DNA of 64,000 nucleotides from Halomarina pelagica. GTDB lineage: Archaea; Halobacteriota; Halobacteria; Halobacteriales; Haloarculaceae. Below, piece after piece: positions 8,283 through 17,306 of this stretch (its first letter is position 1; each line of letters begins with the position of its first letter). Location of the stretch: positions 2,542,001-2,606,000 of the forward strand of contig NZ_CP100454.1 in the NCBI RefSeq assembly GCF_024228315.1. The letters run 5' to 3'. Under the pieces are notes generated by a model. That model ran no database searches, was not told where the DNA came from, and saw only the letters and a program-made list of their open reading frames with translations. A program made the position numbers and the translations under genes.

Positions 8283-8786
8283 ATGGTCGTACGCAGCTTC
8301 GACGGGACGGAACCGACGATCCACGAGACCGCTCGCGTGGACGAGACCGCGGTGGTCATCGGCGAGGTGACGATCGAGGCCGACGCGAGCGTCTGGCCGA
8401 ACGTCACGCTCCGGGGCGACTCGGGCGGCATCGTCGTGCGGGAGGGTGCGAACGTGCAGGACAACGCCGTCTGCCACGAGGGGACCGAGATCGGCCCGTC
8501 CGCGACGATCGGCCACACCGCCATCGTCCACGCCGCGACCGTCGGGGAGCGCGCGATGGTCGGCATGGGCGCGATCGTCCTCGACGGCGCGACGGTCGGC
8601 GACCGGGCGCTGGTCGCCGCGGGCGCGGTCGTCACCGAGGACACGGAGGTGCCGCCGGACACGCTCGTCGCGGGGACGCCCGCGGAGGTGATAAAGGAGG
8701 TCGAGGACTCCCCGTGGGCGCACGCCGGCGATCACTACGTCGAGCTGGCGACGCGCCACGCCGAGACGAGCGAGCGCCTCGAGTGA
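8283..8786 (+). CDS. Gamma-class carbonic anhydrase-like hexapeptide-repeat protein
   Basis: This 167-residue left-handed beta-helix protein carries repeated hexapeptides (for example IEADASVWPNVTLRGD) followed by a C-terminal helix. Candidate zinc ligands are the histidine of VCHEGTEIG near residue 62 and two histidines in IGHTAIVH near 79 and 84, matching the three-His pattern of Cam/CamH-type enzymes. It lacks the acidic loop of the Methanosarcina Cam archetype, so it belongs with the CamH or YrdA-like group. The predicted activity is CO2 hydration, but many YrdA-like members are inactive without further maturation. Confidence 0.88.
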   Translation: MVVRSFDGTEPTIHETARVDETAVVIGEVTIEADASVWPNVTLRGDSGGIVVREGANVQDNAVCHEGTEIGPSATIGHTAIVHAATVGERAMVGMGAIVLDGATVGDRALVAAGAVVTEDTEVPPDTLVAGTPAEVIKEVEDSPWAHAGDHYVELATRHAETSERLE

Positions 8787-8825
8787 TCGCGACCGTCGGT
8801 TACGGCGATCCGCCGCGGCGAGCGC

Positions 8826-9305
8826 TCACGACGATCGGCTCCCGCACTCGACGACGGCGGGATCCGTCGCGGCGGCCATCGAGATCGCGTCCGTCTCGGA
8901 GACGTCGCTACCGACCGCGACGTTGATCCCGTAGGCCTCCGAGGGGTACGAGTCGGCGGTCAGGTCGAGGGACGTCCACTCGTCGTCGCCCGCGTGCCGC
9001 GCGCGGACGACGTGGTGGCCCGCCTCGTTCGACCACGCGCACTCGACGTCCCGCTCCCCCGGCTCGCCCGATTTCCGCGCGGCGGGAACGTCGTACGCCC
9101 GCTCGTGTACCACCCCGCCGTCGCGCAGTACCCGCACCTCGATCCGCCGCGCTCGGTCGGTGAAGTTGGAGATCCACACCCGTCCGAGGGCGGGAGCGGC
9201 CGGCTCCCCGGTCAGCCCGGGAGACGAACAGCCGCCGAGGGTCGCCAGCGCCGCGAGGCTGCTCGCGCCGCTGACGAGGAACCGGCGGCGGGATCGGGTG
9301 CTCAT
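8826..9305 (-). CDS. Tat-exported putative lipoprotein, haloarchaeal
   Basis: The 159-residue protein starts with a twin-arginine signal (MSTRSRRRFLVSG), a hydrophobic stretch, and a lipobox LGGC ending near residue 26, so it should be exported folded by Tat and lipid-anchored outside the cell. The mature part holds a predicted beta-rich domain (VWISNFTDRARRIEVRVLRDG) resembling small extracellular immunoglobulin-like folds of haloarchaeal lipoproteins. No catalytic motif is visible. Its function is unknown. Confidence 0.8.
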   Translation of the reverse strand: MSTRSRRRFLVSGASSLAALATLGGCSSPGLTGEPAAPALGRVWISNFTDRARRIEVRVLRDGGVVHERAYDVPAARKSGEPGERDVECAWSNEAGHHVVRARHAGDDEWTSLDLTADSYPSEAYGINVAVGSDVSETDAISMAAATDPAVVECGSRSS

Positions 9306-9428
9306 CTCTCGGTGTACTTCTCGCCCGACTGAAAAACCTGTCGTCCGTTCGGTCGCACCGTCCGCCGTGCGTCGTGCGTCTCGACGCCCGTCCCTCGACC
9401 CCCGTCTCCGGCCTCGGACGCCCTCGAC

Positions 9429-9776
9429 TCAGGTCGGTTCGGGCGTTCTTTCGAGAGGGCGAAGGCAGAGGCGGCCGTCAGCGTGCACCACGACGCGGTA
9501 TCCGTCGTAGACGAACGCGACGTGCCCGTCGGTTCGCGGGACGCCGCAGAGCGACTCGAACAGTCGGTCGAGGGCGTCGAAGTCGAGGTGATCGGAGAGG
9601 GGGACGATCTCCGTCAGCCCTCGGCCGGTGACCGCGGCGAGCGCCAGCACCACGGAGGTGCTGACGGGATCGTTCGATTTCCAGTCGTGGACGGCGCAGT
9701 ACCACCCCGTCTCGGGGTCGTATGCGACCGTCTCGCTTCCACCGTGGTGGAATCCGTCGGTAGGTTCGTCGTTCAT
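9429..9776 (-). CDS. HalOD1 output-domain protein
   Basis: This 115-residue protein is a single HalOD1 domain, a haloarchaea-specific module usually found alone or as an output domain in signalling proteins. Characteristic elements are VSTSVVLALAAVTG near residue 38, LDFDALDRLFESL near 64 and a terminal beta-hairpin VAFVYDGYRVVVHADG. It lies in front of an HTH_10 regulator gene transcribed in the same direction, so the two may share a regulatory context. A TATA-like cttataaacc on the minus strand at about 9870-9880 could serve it with a leader of roughly 70 nt. Confidence 0.85.
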   Translation of the reverse strand: MNDEPTDGFHHGGSETVAYDPETGWYCAVHDWKSNDPVSTSVVLALAAVTGRGLTEIVPLSDHLDFDALDRLFESLCGVPRTDGHVAFVYDGYRVVVHADGRLCLRPLERTPEPT

Positions 9777-9903
9777 GGGGACACTGCCGAGGACGGACCG
9801 AGCGGTACTCCGCCCGTCCTCGTCCGTCCCAACGACCCTGATGCCGGTGGAACCGGCGGTTCTCGGCAGAAGGGGTTTATAAGTGATTCCTCGGGGGAGC
9901 GCC

Positions 9904-10554
9904 CTATCGGTCGGCCGCCAGCGTGTTCCCGACCAACCGGTACAGCCCGCGCTGGATCCGCTGGGAGACCGCCCGCTGGCTCACTCCGAAGTGGTCGGCC
10001 AGTTCCTGCTGCGTAGTTCGGCGGGGGTCGTCGAAGTAGCCCCGTTCGTACGCGGCCACGATCGTCGTGCGTTGTTCCTCGGTCAGGTCGTACCGCTCCC
10101 CGGCGCGCATTTGCGTCACGCCGTATAGCCGCCGCAGTCGCAGAGGGATCTCGTTCTCGACGGTGTATCGTCGGAACTCCCGAAGTACGTCGCGGTCCGG
10201 AAAGCGAAGTTCGAACCGCCAGCCGTCAGCCGTCCCCCGAGCTTCGAGGATCGACGCCCCCGCCTCGGTAATGCCCGCGACGAGCCCGGCGACGGCGTGA
10301 TTCCACCGCGCTCGGTACAGGACGCCGGTCCCGACGCGATCGACGGCGGTCAGCGACTCGACGGCTCGCTTCTCCCGCACTCGACGCTCGAACTCGTCGA
10401 AGTCACCGCTGTCCCACGCCCAGAAGAACGGCAGCACCCCCTCCTCGGCCGGTACGATGCGCTCCAGTTCGATCCGTATCTCCGACTCGGCCGTGAGCGC
10501 GTCACCGAGCGGAAACGCCCCGACCGGAAGCGTGAACTCCGCGATCGTCGCCAT
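9904..10554 (-). CDS. Bacterio-opsin-activator type HTH_10 transcriptional regulator
   Basis: The 216-residue protein has an N-terminal Bat-like alpha/beta ligand or multimerisation domain (about residues 1-150) and a C-terminal HTH_10 DNA-binding domain (about 155-205, with LTEEQRTTIVAAYERGYFDDPRR followed by the helix-turn-helix TQQELADHFGVSQRAVSQ, shown in part). This pattern defines the haloarchaeal Bat family of DNA-binding activators. The start MATIAEF at 10554 is preferred over an upstream ATG at 10581, because other family members begin with this beta strand. No target can be inferred. Confidence 0.92.
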   Translation of the reverse strand: MATIAEFTLPVGAFPLGDALTAESEIRIELERIVPAEEGVLPFFWAWDSGDFDEFERRVREKRAVESLTAVDRVGTGVLYRARWNHAVAGLVAGITEAGASILEARGTADGWRFELRFPDRDVLREFRRYTVENEIPLRLRRLYGVTQMRAGERYDLTEEQRTTIVAAYERGYFDDPRRTTQQELADHFGVSQRAVSQRIQRGLYRLVGNTLAADR

Positions 10555-10683
10555 ACCGACCCCTTGTCGCCCGGCCGTCAAAGGTACCGAGGCCGCTCGA
10601 AAGCCGTGTACGTGTCCGGGACGTACCCGTCCGCGTTCGAGGGCGTCCGTAGAGTGAGGTGACTCCGCGCCCTACGACGCGCG

Positions 10684-11493
10684 ATGACTTCGTTCGAGAC
10701 CGGCGACCTGCTCGGCCGGTTCCCGTACGTCCGGGTCGGGTCCGAATCAGAGCGGCTCGTCGTCTTCCCCGGCGTGGGCGACGCGATGTTCGACGGGGAC
10801 TATCCGCCGCCGAGCGGATGGGCGCTCAGGACCTACTTCCGTCGGTTCGTCGACGACTACGCCGTCTACGTCGTGAGCCGCCCGCGAGGACTGCCGGCGG
10901 GACAGCGCATCGAGGACATGGCGGCCGACTACGCGGACGCCCTGGAGCGGGAACTCGGCCCCGCCGACGTGCTCGGTATCTCGATGGGCGGGATGATCGC
11001 CCAGGCGTTCGCCGCCGATCACCCGGATCTCGTCGACGAACTCGTGCTCGTCAACACCGGGTGTCGCGTGGCCGACGGTGCCCGGGACGCCGTCCGTCGG
11101 CTTCGGCGGTACGCGCGGACGCACGACTGGGCGCGAATCCGCGCCGAACTCGCGGTCGCGATGTTCACCGACTGGCGGGCGGTATCGTACCCGACGCTCG
11201 CGCTGACCGTCGGTCGGTTCGTCATGCCCAGGCCGGCCGTCGCGAGCGACGTCGGCGTCTCGCTCGACGCCGTCCTGTCGTTCGACGGGCGCGACCGACT
11301 CGACGACATCGCCGCCCGGACGCTCGTGGTCGGCGGCACCGACGACCCGTACTTCCCAAGGTCGATACTCGAGGAGACGGCCGCCGAGATCCCCGACGCG
11401 ACGCTCTGTGCGTTCCGCGGGGCGAAGCACGGCGCGTTCCACGAACGGAAACCGGCCTTCGACTCCCGCGTCGAGGCGTTTCTGGGGCAGTAG
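10684..11493 (+). CDS. Alpha/beta hydrolase
   Basis: This 269-residue alpha/beta hydrolase has the nucleophile elbow GISMGG with Ser near residue 100, an acidic residue in VGGTDDPYFP near 222, and the terminal histidine in RGAKHGAF near 246, so the triad is complete. The start ATG is preceded by gcgcgatg with no obvious TATA. Its substrate cannot be assigned; it may be an esterase, lipase or C-C hydrolase. An SDR gene follows on the same strand after about 140 bp. Confidence 0.85.
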   Translation: MTSFETGDLLGRFPYVRVGSESERLVVFPGVGDAMFDGDYPPPSGWALRTYFRRFVDDYAVYVVSRPRGLPAGQRIEDMAADYADALERELGPADVLGISMGGMIAQAFAADHPDLVDELVLVNTGCRVADGARDAVRRLRRYARTHDWARIRAELAVAMFTDWRAVSYPTLALTVGRFVMPRPAVASDVGVSLDAVLSFDGRDRLDDIAARTLVVGGTDDPYFPRSILEETAAEIPDATLCAFRGAKHGAFHERKPAFDSRVEAFLGQ

Positions 11494-11634
11494 CGGTCGC
11501 GTCGGGCGGCCGTGTCGGGTCCTTCCGTCGGGTGCTCCCGTCGTCCCGGTGCGCGAAACCGAGCGACGAGAGCCCGGTCCGATCGCCGAGTCTGCAAGTG
11601 CAACGACTACCGAACCGCGCGACGAAGCCCTCGT

Positions 11635-12468
11635 ATGGCCGACGACACGGTCCTCATTACGGGGTGCGGGTCCGGGATCGGGCGCGAGACGGCGCTCGCG
11701 TTCCGCGAGCGGGGATGGAACGTCTGCGCCACTGACCCCGACCCGGACGCGATGGCCGACCTCGCGGAGCGCGGCTGTCTGACTCTCGAACTCGACGTGA
11801 CCGAGGACGGCGACGCGACGGCTGTCGTCGAGCGCGTCGCTGGCGAGTTCGGCGGGATCGACTGCCTGTTCAACAACGCGGGATACGGGCAGATCGGCCC
11901 CCTGGAGGAACTTCCGACCGACCGGCTCCGAGAGCAGTTCGAGGTGAACGTCTTCGGCCAGCACCGCCTCCTGCGCGCGGTCCTGCCGGTGATGCGACGG
12001 CGGGACGGCGGGACGGTCGTCAACATGGCGAGCGTCTACGGACGGACCGTCTTCCCCGGCCAGGGGGCCTACTGCGCATCCAAATGGGCGGTCGAGGCGG
12101 TGACCGACACGCTCAGGACCGAGGTCGCGGATCACGGTATCGACGTTGTGACGATCGAACCTGGGCCGGTCGAGACGCGGTTCGGGGAGCGGGCGCTCGC
12201 GCGGAAGGAGGACCTCGAACCGACGGGGGCGTACGGCTGGTTCTACAGGCTCTACGACCCGGAACTGTACGACCGCCGGTTCATCGATCGCGGAGTCGGG
12301 TACGTCCAGCCCCGACGGGTAGCGGCGGTGGTCGTGGACGCCGCGACCGACGACGACCCCGACCGGCGTTACGTCGTCGGTCCGTGGAAGTACCCCCTGC
12401 TGCTCGGGGTCGTCGTGCCCGACGCGGCGCGCGACCTGCTCTATGGGCTCCTGAAGCGGTTCGCGTAG
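11635..12468 (+). CDS. Short-chain dehydrogenase/reductase
   Basis: This 277-residue classical SDR has the cofactor loop TGCGSGIG near residue 9, NNAG near 83, and the catalytic YCASK (Tyr/Lys) near 148. A cap of about 25 residues beyond the standard 250 carries a Trp/Tyr-rich stretch (GAYGWFYRLYDP) that may shape a hydrophobic pocket. The Asp after the second beta strand (CATDPDPDAM) points to NAD(H) rather than NADP(H). I chose the ATG at 11635 since the upstream frame is Arg-rich. Substrate is unknown. Confidence 0.88.
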   Translation: MADDTVLITGCGSGIGRETALAFRERGWNVCATDPDPDAMADLAERGCLTLELDVTEDGDATAVVERVAGEFGGIDCLFNNAGYGQIGPLEELPTDRLREQFEVNVFGQHRLLRAVLPVMRRRDGGTVVNMASVYGRTVFPGQGAYCASKWAVEAVTDTLRTEVADHGIDVVTIEPGPVETRFGERALARKEDLEPTGAYGWFYRLYDPELYDRRFIDRGVGYVQPRRVAAVVVDAATDDDPDRRYVVGPWKYPLLLGVVVPDAARDLLYGLLKRFA

Positions 12469-12673
12469 CGTCCTCGACGAACCGCGACGTCCCCGAGCAG
12501 AAGTCACTCACTCCCAGCCGTCCTACCCTTCACACGGGTGGCGTAGCGCCCGGGCGACGAGCGAGGACCGAGAGAAGCGATCGGGCGATTACTACGTGGT
12601 AGCGCCGCGACGAATCGAGTCGGAGTGGCGACCCGGACGGCAGGCGCAACCGTTACCCCCCGACCCCGGGGCG

Positions 12674-12925
12674 TCAGAGCACCACGCCGTGCATCAGAAA
12701 TCCGACGGTGAGCCAGCCGCCGACGAGCACCCCGACGGCGACGGCGAGCGCGAGCAATCGGGGCGAGACGCCCGCGGTTCGTCCGTCGGCGTCCGCCGCC
12801 GCGCCGCAGCGGACGCACGTCCGGCGAGCGTGCTCCCCCGGCTGATCGATCCAGTCGTGGCCGTCGCGCCGACAGACGACGGGACCGAACAGCGGCGCGG
12901 CGGGCGACGGCGGTTCGTCGGTCAT
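12674..12925 (-). CDS. Small zinc-ribbon plus transmembrane protein
   Basis: The 83-residue protein carries a CxxC-type half-site (CRRDGHDW then RTCVRCGAAAD) within residues 15-48 and one C-terminal hydrophobic helix (LLALAVAVGVLVGGWLTVGFL) near 58-78, so it is predicted to be a membrane-anchored metal-binding protein. The upstream extension of the same frame is Arg-rich and was excluded. Its function is unknown. Confidence 0.7.
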   Translation of the reverse strand: MTDEPPSPAAPLFGPVVCRRDGHDWIDQPGEHARRTCVRCGAAADADGRTAGVSPRLLALAVAVGVLVGGWLTVGFLMHGVVL

Positions 12926-13062
12926 GATCGGTGGGTACTGTCCGCCTCGGCGGGATCCCCGATCGGGCGGCGTACAGCGTACGGGCGTTGAGTGCGCCAC
13001 TGCGCCTAAATACTTGCCGGGTCGGTCGCGTGCGTCGGGCGGACGCCCGGCCACGATCCTCT

Positions 13063-13518
13063 CTACTCCCGAGTCGACCGATCGTACCGCCGGACGACCG
13101 ACGCCACCCAGCCGAGTTTCAGCCCCGTCGACAGCGCGATGCCGACCGCCGCCCGGATCGGCTTTCGCGCGTAGGCGGCGTACAGCGCGTACCCGAACAG
13201 GGGGACGTTCAGCGCGTTGAGGACGTTCGGCCAGCCGAGACCGAACGCGCCGTTGCCCTCGTCGAGCCACCAGCGCTCCGCGCGCACCGCCCGGGTCATC
13301 CAGCCGTCGGCGTCCGGGTCCGGCCGACCGAACGCGATCGGATTGAGGACGGTCGCGAGGACGACCAGCGCGAACAGCCGCCGATCCCGCCGGTAGAGCG
13401 CGACCACCAGCAACGGACCCAGCAGCGTGCGCGACCAGCCGCTCTTCGGGTTCGAGTGACGCTCCCAGAACGCGTCTTCGAGTCGACCGCGCGTCGAACG
13501 CTCCGCTTCCCGCTCCAT
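13063..13518 (-). CDS. DUF6653-like haloarchaeal membrane protein
   Basis: This 151-residue protein has a short charged N-terminus with the motif FWERHSNPKSGWSR near residue 18, two close hydrophobic segments (about 30-60), a tryptophan-rich loop (ERWWLDEG near 84) and further hydrophobic helices near 97-140. The HxNPxSGW motif and layout match my memory of the haloarchaeal family DUF6653. No enzymatic motif is visible and no function is known. Confidence 0.75.
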   Translation of the reverse strand: MEREAERSTRGRLEDAFWERHSNPKSGWSRTLLGPLLVVALYRRDRRLFALVVLATVLNPIAFGRPDPDADGWMTRAVRAERWWLDEGNGAFGLGWPNVLNALNVPLFGYALYAAYARKPIRAAVGIALSTGLKLGWVASVVRRYDRSTRE

Positions 13519-13685
13519 GCGTCCGGTACGCCGGTCGTCGACAAAAGCGTAGAGCCGCGCCGATCGAGTCGGAGGATCGCTCTATCCGACCCACCCGACA
13601 CTCCCCGTCGCCGCTCCGTCCCCGTTCTCGACCGATCTATCAGAATATGGTAATAGTTATCCGCGGGTATCACCTCCCGAACTTC

Positions 13686-13868
13686 GTGGTTCGAGGGGAA
13701 CGGCGGAAACTGGCGGTATGTACCGCGTGCGGAAGCTCGCGGGTGGTGCTGATCCAGTTAGACGGGGATCTCCACCCGATGAACCGCGACGGCACGTGTG
13801 AATGCGGTTCGGACAAGTTCGAACTGGTGAGCTGGGAGGACGTGGAACGACCGGTAGAGGAGGAGTGA
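13686..13868 (+). CDS. Small CxxC zinc-finger protein
   Basis: This is a 60-residue protein with two zinc half-sites, CTACGS and CECGS, separated by about 28 residues, typical of the many small zinc-finger proteins of haloarchaea. I chose the GTG at 13686 because an AT-rich TATA-like gttatcc lies at 13655-13661, about 27 nt upstream. An alternative ATG at 13647 would add 13 non-acidic residues. Target or partner is unknown. Confidence 0.6.
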   Translation: MVRGERRKLAVCTACGSSRVVLIQLDGDLHPMNRDGTCECGSDKFELVSWEDVERPVEEE

Positions 13869-13968
13869 GAGGAGTGGAGCGGTTCTATTCTCCTGGCTGC
13901 CTGCCGAAACAGAAAGGTAGACGAGCTTCGACGGACGTAGAACACCGCTCTCGAGGGGGTGGTTGACG

Positions 13969-14166
13969 TCACTCGCCTGCTTTTACGATGATTATTCCGA
14001 CGAGTACGAGCGTCAGTTCCGTCTTGCAGTGGGGGAGATTGCGGAGGCCATCCATCCCGCCTGTACAACGTATCGTGAGATAGCTTCCGATCAAGAACAC
14101 TACCAGTCCGACGAGGATCACGACTTCGGCTTGGCCCCTCGTGTCCGATGACTGGCGGTCGGTCAT
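13969..14166 (-). CDS. Small two-helix membrane protein of the HNH cassette
   Basis: The 65-residue protein has a short polar N-terminus with RGQAEVVILVGLVVFLIGSYL, a hydrophobic helix near residues 14-32, and a second short one near 50-63. The gene starts 8 nt after the stop of the 89-aa gene upstream, so the two are probably cotranscribed with the membrane HNH gene. Base composition is less GC-rich than the flanks. A plus-strand open frame overlaps it but has no halophile-like composition. Function is unknown. Confidence 0.55.
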   Translation of the reverse strand: MTDRQSSDTRGQAEVVILVGLVVFLIGSYLTIRCTGGMDGLRNLPHCKTELTLVLVGIIIVKAGE

Positions 14167-14174
14167 CGGACTCG

Positions 14175-14444
14175 TTATCGGAAGAGGCCGAAGCCTCCGC
14201 CGAGTGCACTCCCCCCGCGATCGGACTGTTTGGCGTACTTCTGGAACTCCTGTTCCGCGCCTTTGAAGTTTCGGACCTCTATCGTTCTCGTCATCACGTC
14301 CATCCCGACCTCGTCTATCATCCCCGTCGGTTCGTATTCGTCCGTGATGACGCGAGCCTTGAGGTCGCCCCGTCGCTTAATCTCGTACACGCCGTTCTGC
14401 ACCTTTTCGAGGGTCCACTTACCGTCCCTTCGAACAACTGCCAT
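14175..14444 (-). CDS. Hypothetical 89-aa protein of the HNH cassette
   Basis: The protein reads MAVVRRDGKWTLEKVQNG at its start and ends with a glycine-rich GGSALGGGFGLFR tail. It is mixed-charge and lacks the strong acidity of core halophile proteins. It sits 23 nt downstream of the HNH gene stop and 8 nt upstream of a small membrane protein, suggesting a three-gene transcript. I do not recognise a domain. It may be a partner or immunity-like factor of the nuclease, but this is inference from position only. Confidence 0.65.
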   Translation of the reverse strand: MAVVRRDGKWTLEKVQNGVYEIKRRGDLKARVITDEYEPTGMIDEVGMDVMTRTIEVRNFKGAEQEFQKYAKQSDRGGSALGGGFGLFR

Positions 14445-14467
14445 ACGTGAATTTCACCTTCTCGTAC

Positions 14468-14995
14468 TTATCTGTTCACTTGGTACTTAAGCTTTGACCG
14501 GCTGATGGTTCCACCGTCAGCTTTTCGATGACAGTTCGGACAGAGTACGATCAGGTTGCCCGGGGCGTTGGAGCCTCCTTCCGATCGCGGTTCGATGTGA
14601 TGGACATCGGGGGAGTCAACGCGCTCGTTACACCACTCACATCGCCGATCAGCACGCTCGAAGTCGAGTTCGTTTTTGAGGCTCTCGGGAGCCGGCGGGG
14701 TCTTTTCTGTGTTTGTGCGTGTCCGTTCGGAAGCTCCCGAGACTCCACCTCCGGACCCGCTGAACAGCCAGTTGACGGCTCTGTGAAGCCCCGACCGTTG
14801 GCGAACTCCTCTGAACCCCACGATGATATAGAGCAGACCCAACGCCGAGAGACCGACGATGACCCACCGCAGAAAGGCGGTTCGCGCCGAGAATGGTTCG
14901 TTTACTAACATGTACCCTCCGAAGATGAGCGAAACGATGAGGATACCGATTGGAGAGGGACTACCACTTCCAATACTATCTTGATCTAATGACAT
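14468..14995 (-). CDS. Membrane-anchored HNH endonuclease
   Basis: This 175-residue protein has two transmembrane segments (about residues 15-31 and 43-61), a Ser/Gly/Thr-rich linker (about 79-105), and a C-terminal HNH nuclease domain. HNH residues are all present: zinc pairs C119/C122 and C152/C155, the tandem histidines H132-H133, N147, and H156 after CPNC. The nuclease should face the cytoplasm. A minus-strand TATA-like catatttatg lies about 25 nt before the ATG, consistent with a leaderless transcript for the cassette. GC content is visibly lower than in neighbours. Defence nuclease is a possibility; a mobile-element remnant is another. Confidence 0.85.
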   Translation of the reverse strand: MSLDQDSIGSGSPSPIGILIVSLIFGGYMLVNEPFSARTAFLRWVIVGLSALGLLYIIVGFRGVRQRSGLHRAVNWLFSGSGGGVSGASERTRTNTEKTPPAPESLKNELDFERADRRCEWCNERVDSPDVHHIEPRSEGGSNAPGNLIVLCPNCHRKADGGTISRSKLKYQVNR

Positions 14996-15117
14996 ACATA
15001 ATTCACTACATCAACGGAACATAAATATGTGCACTTCGACACGCGCTCTTTATCGGCGGGCGAGCGTATCGGGCACGAAATCGAATGGCAAAGACGACCC
15101 GGACGTAGAGGGGTTCG

Positions 15118-16074
15118 TTATCGCCCCAGCCAGTCGACCATCGCGTCTTCGTTTTCCACGATGGCGGAGACATGTCCGAGATCGGGGTAGAAGTGCGCCT
15201 CCGCAGTGGGAATCGCGTCCCACAGGGACAGTCCCATTTCGATCGGGGTGATCCGATCGGCCCGTCCGTGCCAGATTCCGACGGGCACGTCGATGGTCTC
15301 GAGGGGGAACCCCCAGTCGCCCGCGAACAGCCGTAGATCCCTGACGAACGTCGCGTTGCCGTGATGCTGGCTGGCGGCCGGTACTGAAGCGACCAGGAGC
15401 TTCCCGACCTCGCTTCTCCAGATCTCCTCGTCCCTCGGCGCGGCGGCTTCGATCCGCCGTTCGAGCGTCCACTCGGGCGCGTACAGCGCCGAGAGTTCCT
15501 CCGCTCGCAAGAACGTTCGGATCACCCACGGTACGTACGAAGCGCCGAGAGGGAGGAGCCGGGGTTTGAGACCGACCGATTCGATCGGGCCGAACCCGCA
15601 ACAGACGGCGACCCGTGGAAATCGTTCGGGGGCTAACGCAGCGCACGCGACGGCGTACGGCCCGCCGGCAGAAATACCGAGCACGGGGGCCGCGTCGACG
15701 TCGAGGGCGTCCAACACCCCGGCAGCGTCGGCCGGCCAGTCGGCTATCTCCCGATCGGGGTCCGGGTCGGAGACGCCGACGCCCGGGCGCTCGGGGGCGA
15801 CGATCCGAACCCCTCGCTCTCGACCGACGCGGTCGAACAGGGCGGCCCCCAGCCTGCCACTGGGCACGCCGTGAACGGCCAGAACCGGATCGCCGTCCGG
15901 ATCACCCGTCTCTGCATACCCGAGCTTTCGGCCGTCCGGGAGCGTCACCGTATCCGGGTTTTCGAACAGGTCACGCGCGATAGCGAGCACTCCCCCGGCA
16001 TCCTCCCCGAGGAATGGCGGCGTGGCGTTCCGCCCCCACCAGCGCCGGAACGGGACGTCGACGAGACTATGCAT
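15118..16074 (-). CDS. Alpha/beta hydrolase
   Basis: This 318-residue alpha/beta hydrolase has a ~45-residue N-terminal extension, an oxyanion-hole AVHGVPSGR near residue 67, the nucleophile elbow GISAGG with Ser near 134, and the catalytic histidine in DLGHVSA near 302. The acid is probably in GRADRITP near 271. A GC-rich sequence distinguishes it from the adjacent AT-richer HNH cassette. Substrate is unknown. Confidence 0.85.
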   Translation of the reverse strand: MHSLVDVPFRRWWGRNATPPFLGEDAGGVLAIARDLFENPDTVTLPDGRKLGYAETGDPDGDPVLAVHGVPSGRLGAALFDRVGRERGVRIVAPERPGVGVSDPDPDREIADWPADAAGVLDALDVDAAPVLGISAGGPYAVACAALAPERFPRVAVCCGFGPIESVGLKPRLLPLGASYVPWVIRTFLRAEELSALYAPEWTLERRIEAAAPRDEEIWRSEVGKLLVASVPAASQHHGNATFVRDLRLFAGDWGFPLETIDVPVGIWHGRADRITPIEMGLSLWDAIPTAEAHFYPDLGHVSAIVENEDAMVDWLGR

Positions 16075-16204
16075 CGTCCGTATACCGGTGGCCGTCTAAG
16101 TAAGGGTTGACGTCGACGGGCGCTACCAGCCGCTCTCCACCTCGATGCCGGATTTATTCGAACCCTCTGCGCCGGTTCGCTCGTCACGTCTCGCAGGATC
16201 ATGA

Positions 16205-16272
16205 GGGCTGCAGGATTTGAACCACGGTCGTTCCGCTCGCTCACGCTCGCTTCACTCCCTGATTCAAATCCT
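16205..16272. repeat. Duplicated tRNA-Arg T-arm and inverted copy (possible attachment-site scar)
   Basis: The 16 bp ctgcaggatttgaacc occurs at 16208-16223 and again at 16318-16333 within the 3' half of tRNA-Arg. Its core is also inverted: aggatttgaa at 16212-16221 faces ttcaaatcct at 16263-16272. The piece reproduces only a tRNA T-arm and acceptor start (preceded by aggg), so it is not a functional tRNA. A duplicate of a tRNA 3' end beside the gene is the usual trace of integrase-mediated insertion. Confidence 0.6.
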
Positions 16273-16311
16273 TCGGAGCCGTTTTCACGGCTCACTTCGT
16301 TCGCCGGAAAA

Positions 16312-16386
16312 CGGGCGCTGCAGGATTTGAACCCGCGGCAACTTGGTCCGAAGCCAAGCACTCTGTCCAGACTGAGCTAAGCGCCC
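16312..16386 (-). tRNA. tRNA-Arg (anticodon UCG)
   Basis: The reverse complement folds as a canonical cloverleaf. The acceptor GGGCGCT pairs with AGCGCCC and is followed by discriminator G; the anticodon arm CTTGG-CTTCGGA-CCAAG has TCG in the central positions, which reads CGA (Arg); the T-loop is TTCAAAT. No intron is seen and CCA is not encoded. Confidence 0.95.
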
Positions 16387-16469: not shown

Positions 16470-17306
16470 ATGCGCGAGGCGCTCCGCGGACTGATCGAAC
16501 TCACCCGTCCGGTGAACGCGATCGCCGCGGGCGTCCTCACCCTCATCGGCGCGTACGTCGCGGAGGGGATCGCCGGACACCCCGTCGCCGCGGCGGCCGC
16601 CGCGACCGCGACCGTCTTCGCCGTGGGGGCCGGGAACGCCATCAACGACTACTTCGACGCGGACATCGATCGCATCAACGCGCCCGGGCGACCCATCCCG
16701 CGCGGCGCGGTCGGGGAGCGCGCGGCGCTCGCGTTCGCCGTCGCCCTGTTCGCCGTCGCCGTCGCGCTGGCGCTCACCCTGCCGCTACTCGCCGTCGCGA
16801 TCGCCGCGTTCAACCTGCTCGCGCTGGTCGCCTACACGGAGTTCTTCAAGGGCCTGCCGGGCGTCGGCAACGCCGTCGTCGCCTACCTCGGCGGGAGCAC
16901 GTTCCTCTTCGGCGGCGCGGCGGTCGAGGGCGAACTCGCGCCCGTCGTCGCGCTGTTCGCGCTCGCCGCCCTCTCGACGTTCACCCGCGAGGTGATCAAG
17001 GACGTGGAAGACCTCGCCGGCGACCGCGAGGAAGGGCTCAACACGCTCCCGATCGCCGTCGGCGAGCGTCGCGCGCTCCTGCTCGGGACCGCCTGCCTGG
17101 TCGTCGCGGTGCTCGCGAGTCCGCTTCCGTACCTCACCGGGACCCTCGGGTTCGCCTACCTCGCGCTCGTGATCCCGGCGGACCTCGTCATGCTCGCGGC
17201 CGCGGCGGAGAGCTTCTCCGATCCGACCGGGGGCCAGACGCACATCAAGTACGGGATGTTCCTCGCGGCGGCGGCGTTCGTCGTCGGGCGGGCGGTCGCG
17301 CTGTGA
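16470..17306 (+). CDS. Digeranylgeranylglyceryl phosphate synthase (UbiA prenyltransferase)
   Basis: This 278-residue UbiA-superfamily membrane enzyme attaches the second geranylgeranyl chain to geranylgeranylglyceryl phosphate, an essential step in archaeal ether-lipid synthesis. The two Asp-rich Mg/diphosphate-binding motifs are NDYFDADIDRIN near residue 58 and KDVEDLAGDREEG near 177. About eight hydrophobic helices are visible. The immediate RPIPRGAV after motif 1 is typical of archaeal DGGGP synthases rather than menaquinone MenA. The adjacent mevalonate gene elsewhere in the window supplies the same pathway, but they are not in one operon. Confidence 0.93.
   Translation: MREALRGLIELTRPVNAIAAGVLTLIGAYVAEGIAGHPVAAAAAATATVFAVGAGNAINDYFDADIDRINAPGRPIPRGAVGERAALAFAVALFAVAVALALTLPLLAVAIAAFNLLALVAYTEFFKGLPGVGNAVVAYLGGSTFLFGGAAVEGELAPVVALFALAALSTFTREVIKDVEDLAGDREEGLNTLPIAVGERRALLLGTACLVVAVLASPLPYLTGTLGFAYLALVIPADLVMLAAAAESFSDPTGGQTHIKYGMFLAAAAFVVGRAVAL

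Follow-up and report, generated by a model that had tools for sequence, protein, structure and literature searches.

A window of Halomarina pelagica DNA (the whole stretch analysed, 64,000 nucleotides) contains three close minus-strand ORFs encoding proteins of 175, 89 and 65 aa, spaced by 23 and 8 bp. Which of these genes belong together, and what might a nuclease carried on membrane helices do in an archaeal cell? An earlier note, made from the letters of the window, had taken the ORFs for a membrane-anchored HNH nuclease and two small partners in AT-richer DNA. The three ORFs lie exactly where that note had placed them (Table 1), and the difference in composition was confirmed: the cassette has a GC content of 56.1%, compared to 69.1% for the whole window, and is the lowest 1-kb stretch in the 64 kb. 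The position of a TATTTAT box ahead of the HNH gene resembles that of the haloarchaeal TATA box of a leaderless transcript, and this box may act as the promoter. Scans for sigma-70-type promoters and terminators were uninformative here, as their models are not suited to archaea.

Table 1 Features of the cassette and its surroundings (positions in the window)
Feature	Position	Strand	Evidence or remark
175-aa membrane-anchored HNH nuclease gene	14468..14995	-	PF01844 (E 2.3e-11), relatives, two-helix prediction
Predicted transmembrane helix 1, residues 13-31	14903..14959	-	hydropathy 1.85
Predicted transmembrane helix 2, residues 41-59	14819..14875	-	hydropathy 2.18
Family motif TPPxPExLKNELxFERA, residues 99-115, ahead of the HNH domain	14651..14701	-	alignment
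HNH domain, McrA-like fold, residues 118-157	14525..14644	-	Pfam; Foldseek
89-aa partner gene	14175..14444	-	homology to split partners and fused N-termini
65-aa small membrane ORF	13969..14166	-	no convincing homologue
TATTTAT box	15021..15027	-	25 nt upstream of the HNH start codon
Species-variable interval beside tRNA-Arg(TCG), holds the cassette	8787..16311		flank synteny
tRNA-Arg(TCG) bordering the variable interval	16312..16386	-	ARAGORN

The HNH nuclease and its 89-aa partner

The 175-aa protein scores 44.1 bits against the HNH endonuclease family PF01844 (curated cut-off 21.4) and retains the catalytic residues H133, N147 and H156, which places it among the HNH endonucleases. The complete HNH site described in the earlier note is intact: in an alignment with catalytic haloarchaeal relatives, C119, C122, H132, H133, N147, C152 and H156 are invariant, and only C155 varies, some relatives having H or D at this position. 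The two N-terminal membrane helices that had been proposed are also borne out by prediction. A flexible linker separates them from the HNH domain, and the second helix is followed by a basic stretch, FRGVRQRSGLHR, which under the positive-inside rule suggests that the C-terminus is cytosolic. Since a DNA-binding helix-turn-helix is able to precede helix 1 in a homologue (see below), we infer that both ends of the protein face the cytosol. The PP of the family motif ahead of the HNH domain is invariant throughout the alignment of two-helix HNH (2TM-HNH) proteins, including those from Thermoplasmata and Dehalococcoidia.

To place the nuclease structurally, we used the AlphaFold model of a fused homologue from Halosimplex, which consists of a domain like the 89-aa protein, two long helices and an HNH domain, with helices at the place equivalent to helix 1 of the 175-aa protein. 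In Foldseek, the best hits to its HNH domain were EcoKMcrA (6ghc) and ScoMcrA (5zmm; probability 1.00, E 4e-3), and the same two proteins are the best sequence matches. The similarity covers the HNH core fold and the catalytic residues. Unlike these McrA-type nucleases, however, the pair has membrane helices and contains no modification-binding domain in Pfam and NCBIfam scans. A modification-dependent restriction enzyme (type IV, McrA-like) tethered to the membrane, in which the 89-aa domain reads modified bases, would fit these matches and a hit to the PADLOC mREase_IV model at 1e-5, but the likeness is limited to the generic HNH core, and the scans revealed no SRA, EVE, SBD or McrA recognition domain. 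We regard this explanation as highly improbable.

The 89-aa protein is a stand-alone version of the N-terminal domain of the fused homologues, with 62-63% identity to the separate partners in Natrinema zhouii and in genome G055 and ~30-42% to the fused N-termini. Its predicted core comprises a four-strand beta-meander, a fifth strand and an alpha helix (AlphaFold, mean pLDDT 80, core ~90). Fold searches gave no confident match, the best VIA-align Z of 5.5 lying below the tool's noise guide, and neither did a search of BFVD. The candidates that came up (the pierisin catalytic fragment, the methane-monooxygenase inhibitory subunit and an integrase arm-binding domain) are all within the noise, and a match to SiAga1 (E 0.03 over 21 residues) was judged to be chance. 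Most members of the domain family carry a negative net charge, which speaks against the role proposed next, although the window copy is unusually basic. Most likely, this domain binds or recognizes nucleic acid or a complex at the site of entry. A recognition role is suggested by the helix-turn-helix that takes its place in one homologue, whereas nucleic-acid binding as such is assigned tentatively, since the fold searches returned no confident match.

Split, fused and domain-swapped forms of the pair

The order of an HNH gene followed by an 89-aa gene is kept in the window and at three further loci, with gaps of 23 bp in the window, 2 bp in Natrinema zhouii (L062), 3 bp in the Natrialbaceae-like genome G055 (L144) and -10 bp in G409 (L235), which lies outside Halobacteriales. 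Identities to the window proteins are 66% (HNH) and 62% (89-aa) for N. zhouii, 51% and 63% for G055, and 37% and 46% for G409. At ten loci the same modules form one protein of ~260-300 aa, arranged as 89-aa-like domain, two helices, linker and HNH domain (G149, G155, G101, G100, G023, G286, G013, G380, a second G055 locus and Halosimplex aquaticum); the G100 copy is carried by a Natronosalvus plasmid. In Halomarina halobia, a helix-turn-helix (PF04545, 7.9e-7; HTH_23, 5e-6) stands in place of the 89-aa domain before the two helices and the HNH domain. A tree of the helix-plus-HNH part clusters the split forms and places the H. halobia form adjacent to them, with modest support. In a set of 335 phylum-wide genomes, only two from outside Halobacteriales carry the 89-aa domain, both times directly behind a 2TM-HNH gene; one copy, in G418, is decayed. 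Fusion plus repeated adjacency is strong evidence, at the level of sequence, that the HNH and 89-aa modules act together.

The third ORF behaves differently from this pair. Searches of 293 genomes with the 65-aa protein gave nothing better than E 0.003, plasmids and viral contigs gave no hit, and no homologue was found behind the pairs in N. zhouii, G055 and G409. Of the two membrane helices that had been read into it, the first is clearly predicted and the second is weak. Thus, a three-gene unit is rejected: the pairing of the HNH and 89-aa genes recurs in four lineages and in ten fusions, but for the 65-aa ORF no convincing homologue turned up, and the homologous pairs lack it. By these comparisons, only the HNH and 89-aa genes form the conserved unit; in the window, the 65-aa ORF may be co-transcribed with them. 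The earlier note had also considered a toxin-like cassette. In the sense of a toxin-antitoxin system this is disfavoured, because the partner domain is fused in cis to the nuclease at ten loci and occurs alone, without any HNH gene, in eight genomes.

Distribution, mobility and wider family

We found the 89-aa domain in 21 of 392 Halobacteriales genomes: ten carry an intact pair or fusion, eight the domain alone, and three a truncated copy or remnant. It was not found in the five congeners searched. The closest HNH protein is in another family (66% identity to Natrinema, Natrialbaceae, versus ~42% to G286 of the same family), and the cassette has a GC content of 48-56%, below that of its flanks, at 13 of 14 haloarchaeal loci. 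Stand-alone genes of 77-89 aa without any HNH gene (for example L155:9166-9423, L156:9141-9383, L158:8961-9230 and L190:8957-9199) occupy two conserved syntenic positions, beside an IMP-dehydrogenase-like or a phosphoribosyltransferase-like gene; the one in G088 lies behind a tRNA-Lys gene, a site it shares with the Natrinema pair.

In the window, the cassette sits in a species-variable interval beside tRNA-Arg(TCG), flanked by a gamma-carbonic-anhydrase-like gene (8283-8786) and UbiA (16470-17306). Both flanks are syntenic in G256, G357, G384 and G204, the gene content between them differs, and the flank-to-flank distance is 7.7 kb in the window versus 1.9, 6.7, 2.4 and 1.6 kb in these genomes, respectively. 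Other copies lie 120-420 bp behind tRNA-Lys (L062), tRNA-Val (L144) and tRNA-Val (L146). With only ~50 tRNA genes per 4 Mb, it is unlikely that three of 14 loci would fall within ~500 bp of a tRNA by chance (a rough estimate is about 1e-3). Copies of tRNA 3' ends, 17-26 bp long, directly follow the tRNAs at four sites: one is the 17-bp copy of the 3' part of tRNA-Arg(TCG) at 16207-16223 of the window, and the others are in G055, G101 and G357 (L144:8662-8680, L148:5112-5137, L186:8516-8538). These look like the remains of old integrations; since the repeats do not bracket the cassette, no complete element could be delimited. Some copies adjoin tyrosine recombinases or tail-like genes, as recognized by eye from sequence and partly by Pfam. 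Judged from these relationships, the HNH/89-aa pair has spread horizontally, and it is very probable that the unit consists of two modules and is mobile.

Two further observations concern individual sites. A plasmid of Salinigranum marinum carries a frameshifted, unannotated remnant of the HNH gene (L191:5923-6400). In the congener G357, the same tRNA-Arg interval contains a gene resembling, by eye, a PD-(D/E)XK-type nuclease (L202:12089-13048), so this interval may collect nuclease or defence genes.

The mobility bears on whom the pair might serve. As cargo of integrative elements, proviruses or plasmids, it would exclude competitors of the element (superinfection exclusion) rather than defend the host, in keeping with what several loci show (tRNA-proximal sites, neighbouring tyrosine recombinases, tail-like genes or residence on a plasmid) and with the low GC content nearly everywhere. 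An intact element is missing around most copies, however, and the 89-aa domain had no match in 50,697 phage records or in IMG/VR contigs; together with the lack of a confident fold match in BFVD, this also led us to reject a viral origin of the domain. We consider the cargo explanation distinctly unlikely.

Two helices before a linker and an HNH domain are present in nearly all members of the wider family, including those in Thermoplasmata, Micrarchaeota and Dehalococcoidia. HNH proteins with two helices but no 89-aa domain are encoded in Thermoplasmata (L070:7737-8279), Micrarchaeota (L071:7605-8336) and Dehalococcoidia (L075:1447-2055), all three with the PP motif before the HNH domain, and in the archaeal genomes G406 and G523 (loci L237:8230-8892 and L238:9079-9648). 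Marine Group IV archaea have a relative with one helix and a basic coil (L064:7704-8282, L067:2299-2859) that shows 71-73% identity in the HNH part, occupies a fixed chromosomal place and looks vertically inherited. A conserved two-helix HNH-like protein in genus g47 (L161:9273-9758, L153:9331-9819) has its catalytic histidines partly replaced (VEHV; CPxC without the final His) and is, from these substitutions, probably a non-catalytic paralogue. The fixed place in Marine Group IV and the conserved, apparently non-catalytic g47 paralogues would suit a housekeeping enzyme that processes DNA at the membrane during uptake, use of extracellular DNA, mating or repair. The haloarchaeal pairs are rare (intact in 10 of 392 genomes), mobile and sometimes decayed, which makes such a role very unlikely for them.

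Proposed function and comparison with known systems

We propose that the pair is a mobile two-module system in which a nuclease moored to the membrane cuts foreign DNA at its point of entry, a reading to which we assign a probability of about 0.42. The first module would be a McrA-type beta-beta-alpha-metal HNH nuclease, tethered to the cytosolic side of the membrane through its two helices and flexible linker. The second would be a small cytosolic domain working with the nuclease, either in cis as an N-terminal fusion or in trans as the product of the downstream 89-aa gene. Mooring would keep a non-specific nuclease away from the nucleoid and chromosome, and would set it where a virus genome, a plasmid, or mating or uptake DNA crosses the membrane. 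There, the recognition module would grip the incoming DNA or the entry complex and the HNH domain would cut. An antiviral benefit would follow if the incoming DNA were that of a virus.

The closest parallel is SNIPE, a membrane-bound GIY-YIG anti-phage nuclease of E. coli. It has a DNA-binding region, cuts phage DNA while this is being injected, and turns toxic once its membrane anchor is deleted (PMC13190303). Like SNIPE, the pair is a single small system with a C-terminal nuclease, variable N-terminal modules and, by prediction, an N-terminal anchor and a cytosolic recognition region; in both, anchoring is the proposed rule for telling self from non-self. The SNIPE-type anchor would correspond to the two helices predicted in the HNH protein, if these are oriented with the nuclease in the cytosol. 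In contrast to the GIY-YIG domain of SNIPE, only HNH nuclease families match the pair, and no DUF4041 was found in Pfam scans. In addition, the pair is archaeal, has two helices as a rule, and obtains its 75-aa recognition domain by fusion or from a second gene. On these grounds the pair is analogous to SNIPE, not homologous to it, and not a SNIPE member. A broader and more tentative reading, which we hold at less than even odds, is that an undescribed mobile family of two-helix HNH nucleases with a dedicated recognition module, fused or separate, destroys incoming viral or plasmid DNA at the membrane as an archaeal, HNH-based counterpart of SNIPE, and has nuclease-only relatives in other archaea and Dehalococcoidia. 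If so, location-based DNA restriction at the membrane would extend from bacteria to archaea with another nuclease fold, and the strategy would seem to have arisen more than once. The split, fused and domain-swapped versions of one module pair offer a testable handle on the job of the small domain, and virus-plating and mating tests are easily done with the genetics of haloarchaea.

Other systems share single features with the pair. The ZorE protein of Zorya type II is an HNH nuclease that acts with the ZorAB membrane complex, and thus likewise works near the membrane. Here, the nuclease has helices of its own, the ZorE model scores 12.9 bits against a cut-off of 600, and no ZorAB was found among the gene calls and Pfam matches around the window cassette. 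The CBASS HNH-SAVED effector (Cap5) is also an HNH effector nuclease, but the pair has no SAVED domain, HNH-SAVED models match the HNH protein over the HNH core only, and a cyclase was noticed near only one of 14 loci.

CBASS and Ptu-type systems often employ HNH effectors, and the HNH domain of the pair is weakly similar to both. This raises abortive infection as an alternative, in which the 89-aa domain senses infection and frees the moored HNH nuclease, all DNA of the cell is degraded and the cell dies. The membrane anchor, the small sensor-like partner, the patchy distribution and the decay of some copies are compatible with this, as is the Natronosalvus plasmid locus, where a CD-NTase-like gene lies 1.2 kb from the fused HNH gene (L162:12067-12984) with an integrase and a type I restriction-modification system nearby. 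That gene was noticed at one locus only, however, the partner is only ~75 aa and is cis-fused in most homologues, and there is no ligand-binding domain and no SAVED or CARF match in Pfam. We therefore regard abortive infection as unlikely.

A defence role is plausible from the anatomy, the patchy spread and the tRNA- or integrase-linked sites. The membrane-tethered defence effector of the earlier note stands in so far as a membrane-anchored HNH nuclease is linked to the 89-aa protein, but the co-occurrence with defence islands that it proposed to look for was little seen: clear PADLOC partners were present at two of 14 neighbourhoods (119 neighbour proteins), those of the Natronosalvus plasmid copy and of the fused gene in G055. 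This tally is weak evidence either way, as it covers the 25 commonest of 90 families as raw counts without a baseline. Many copies stand alone amid housekeeping genes. In the literature, our searches turned up no relevant work on archaeal HNH nucleases with a membrane anchor, and the papers searched contained no experiment on any family member. At the fused locus of G055, a C5 methylase and a Fic-like protein lie alongside. Three loci have a PIN-domain (VapC-like) gene no more than ~1.5 kb from the fused HNH gene (L145:8552-9141, L148:10268-10588, L150:10388-11025), and at two of the three a small gene lies directly upstream of it.
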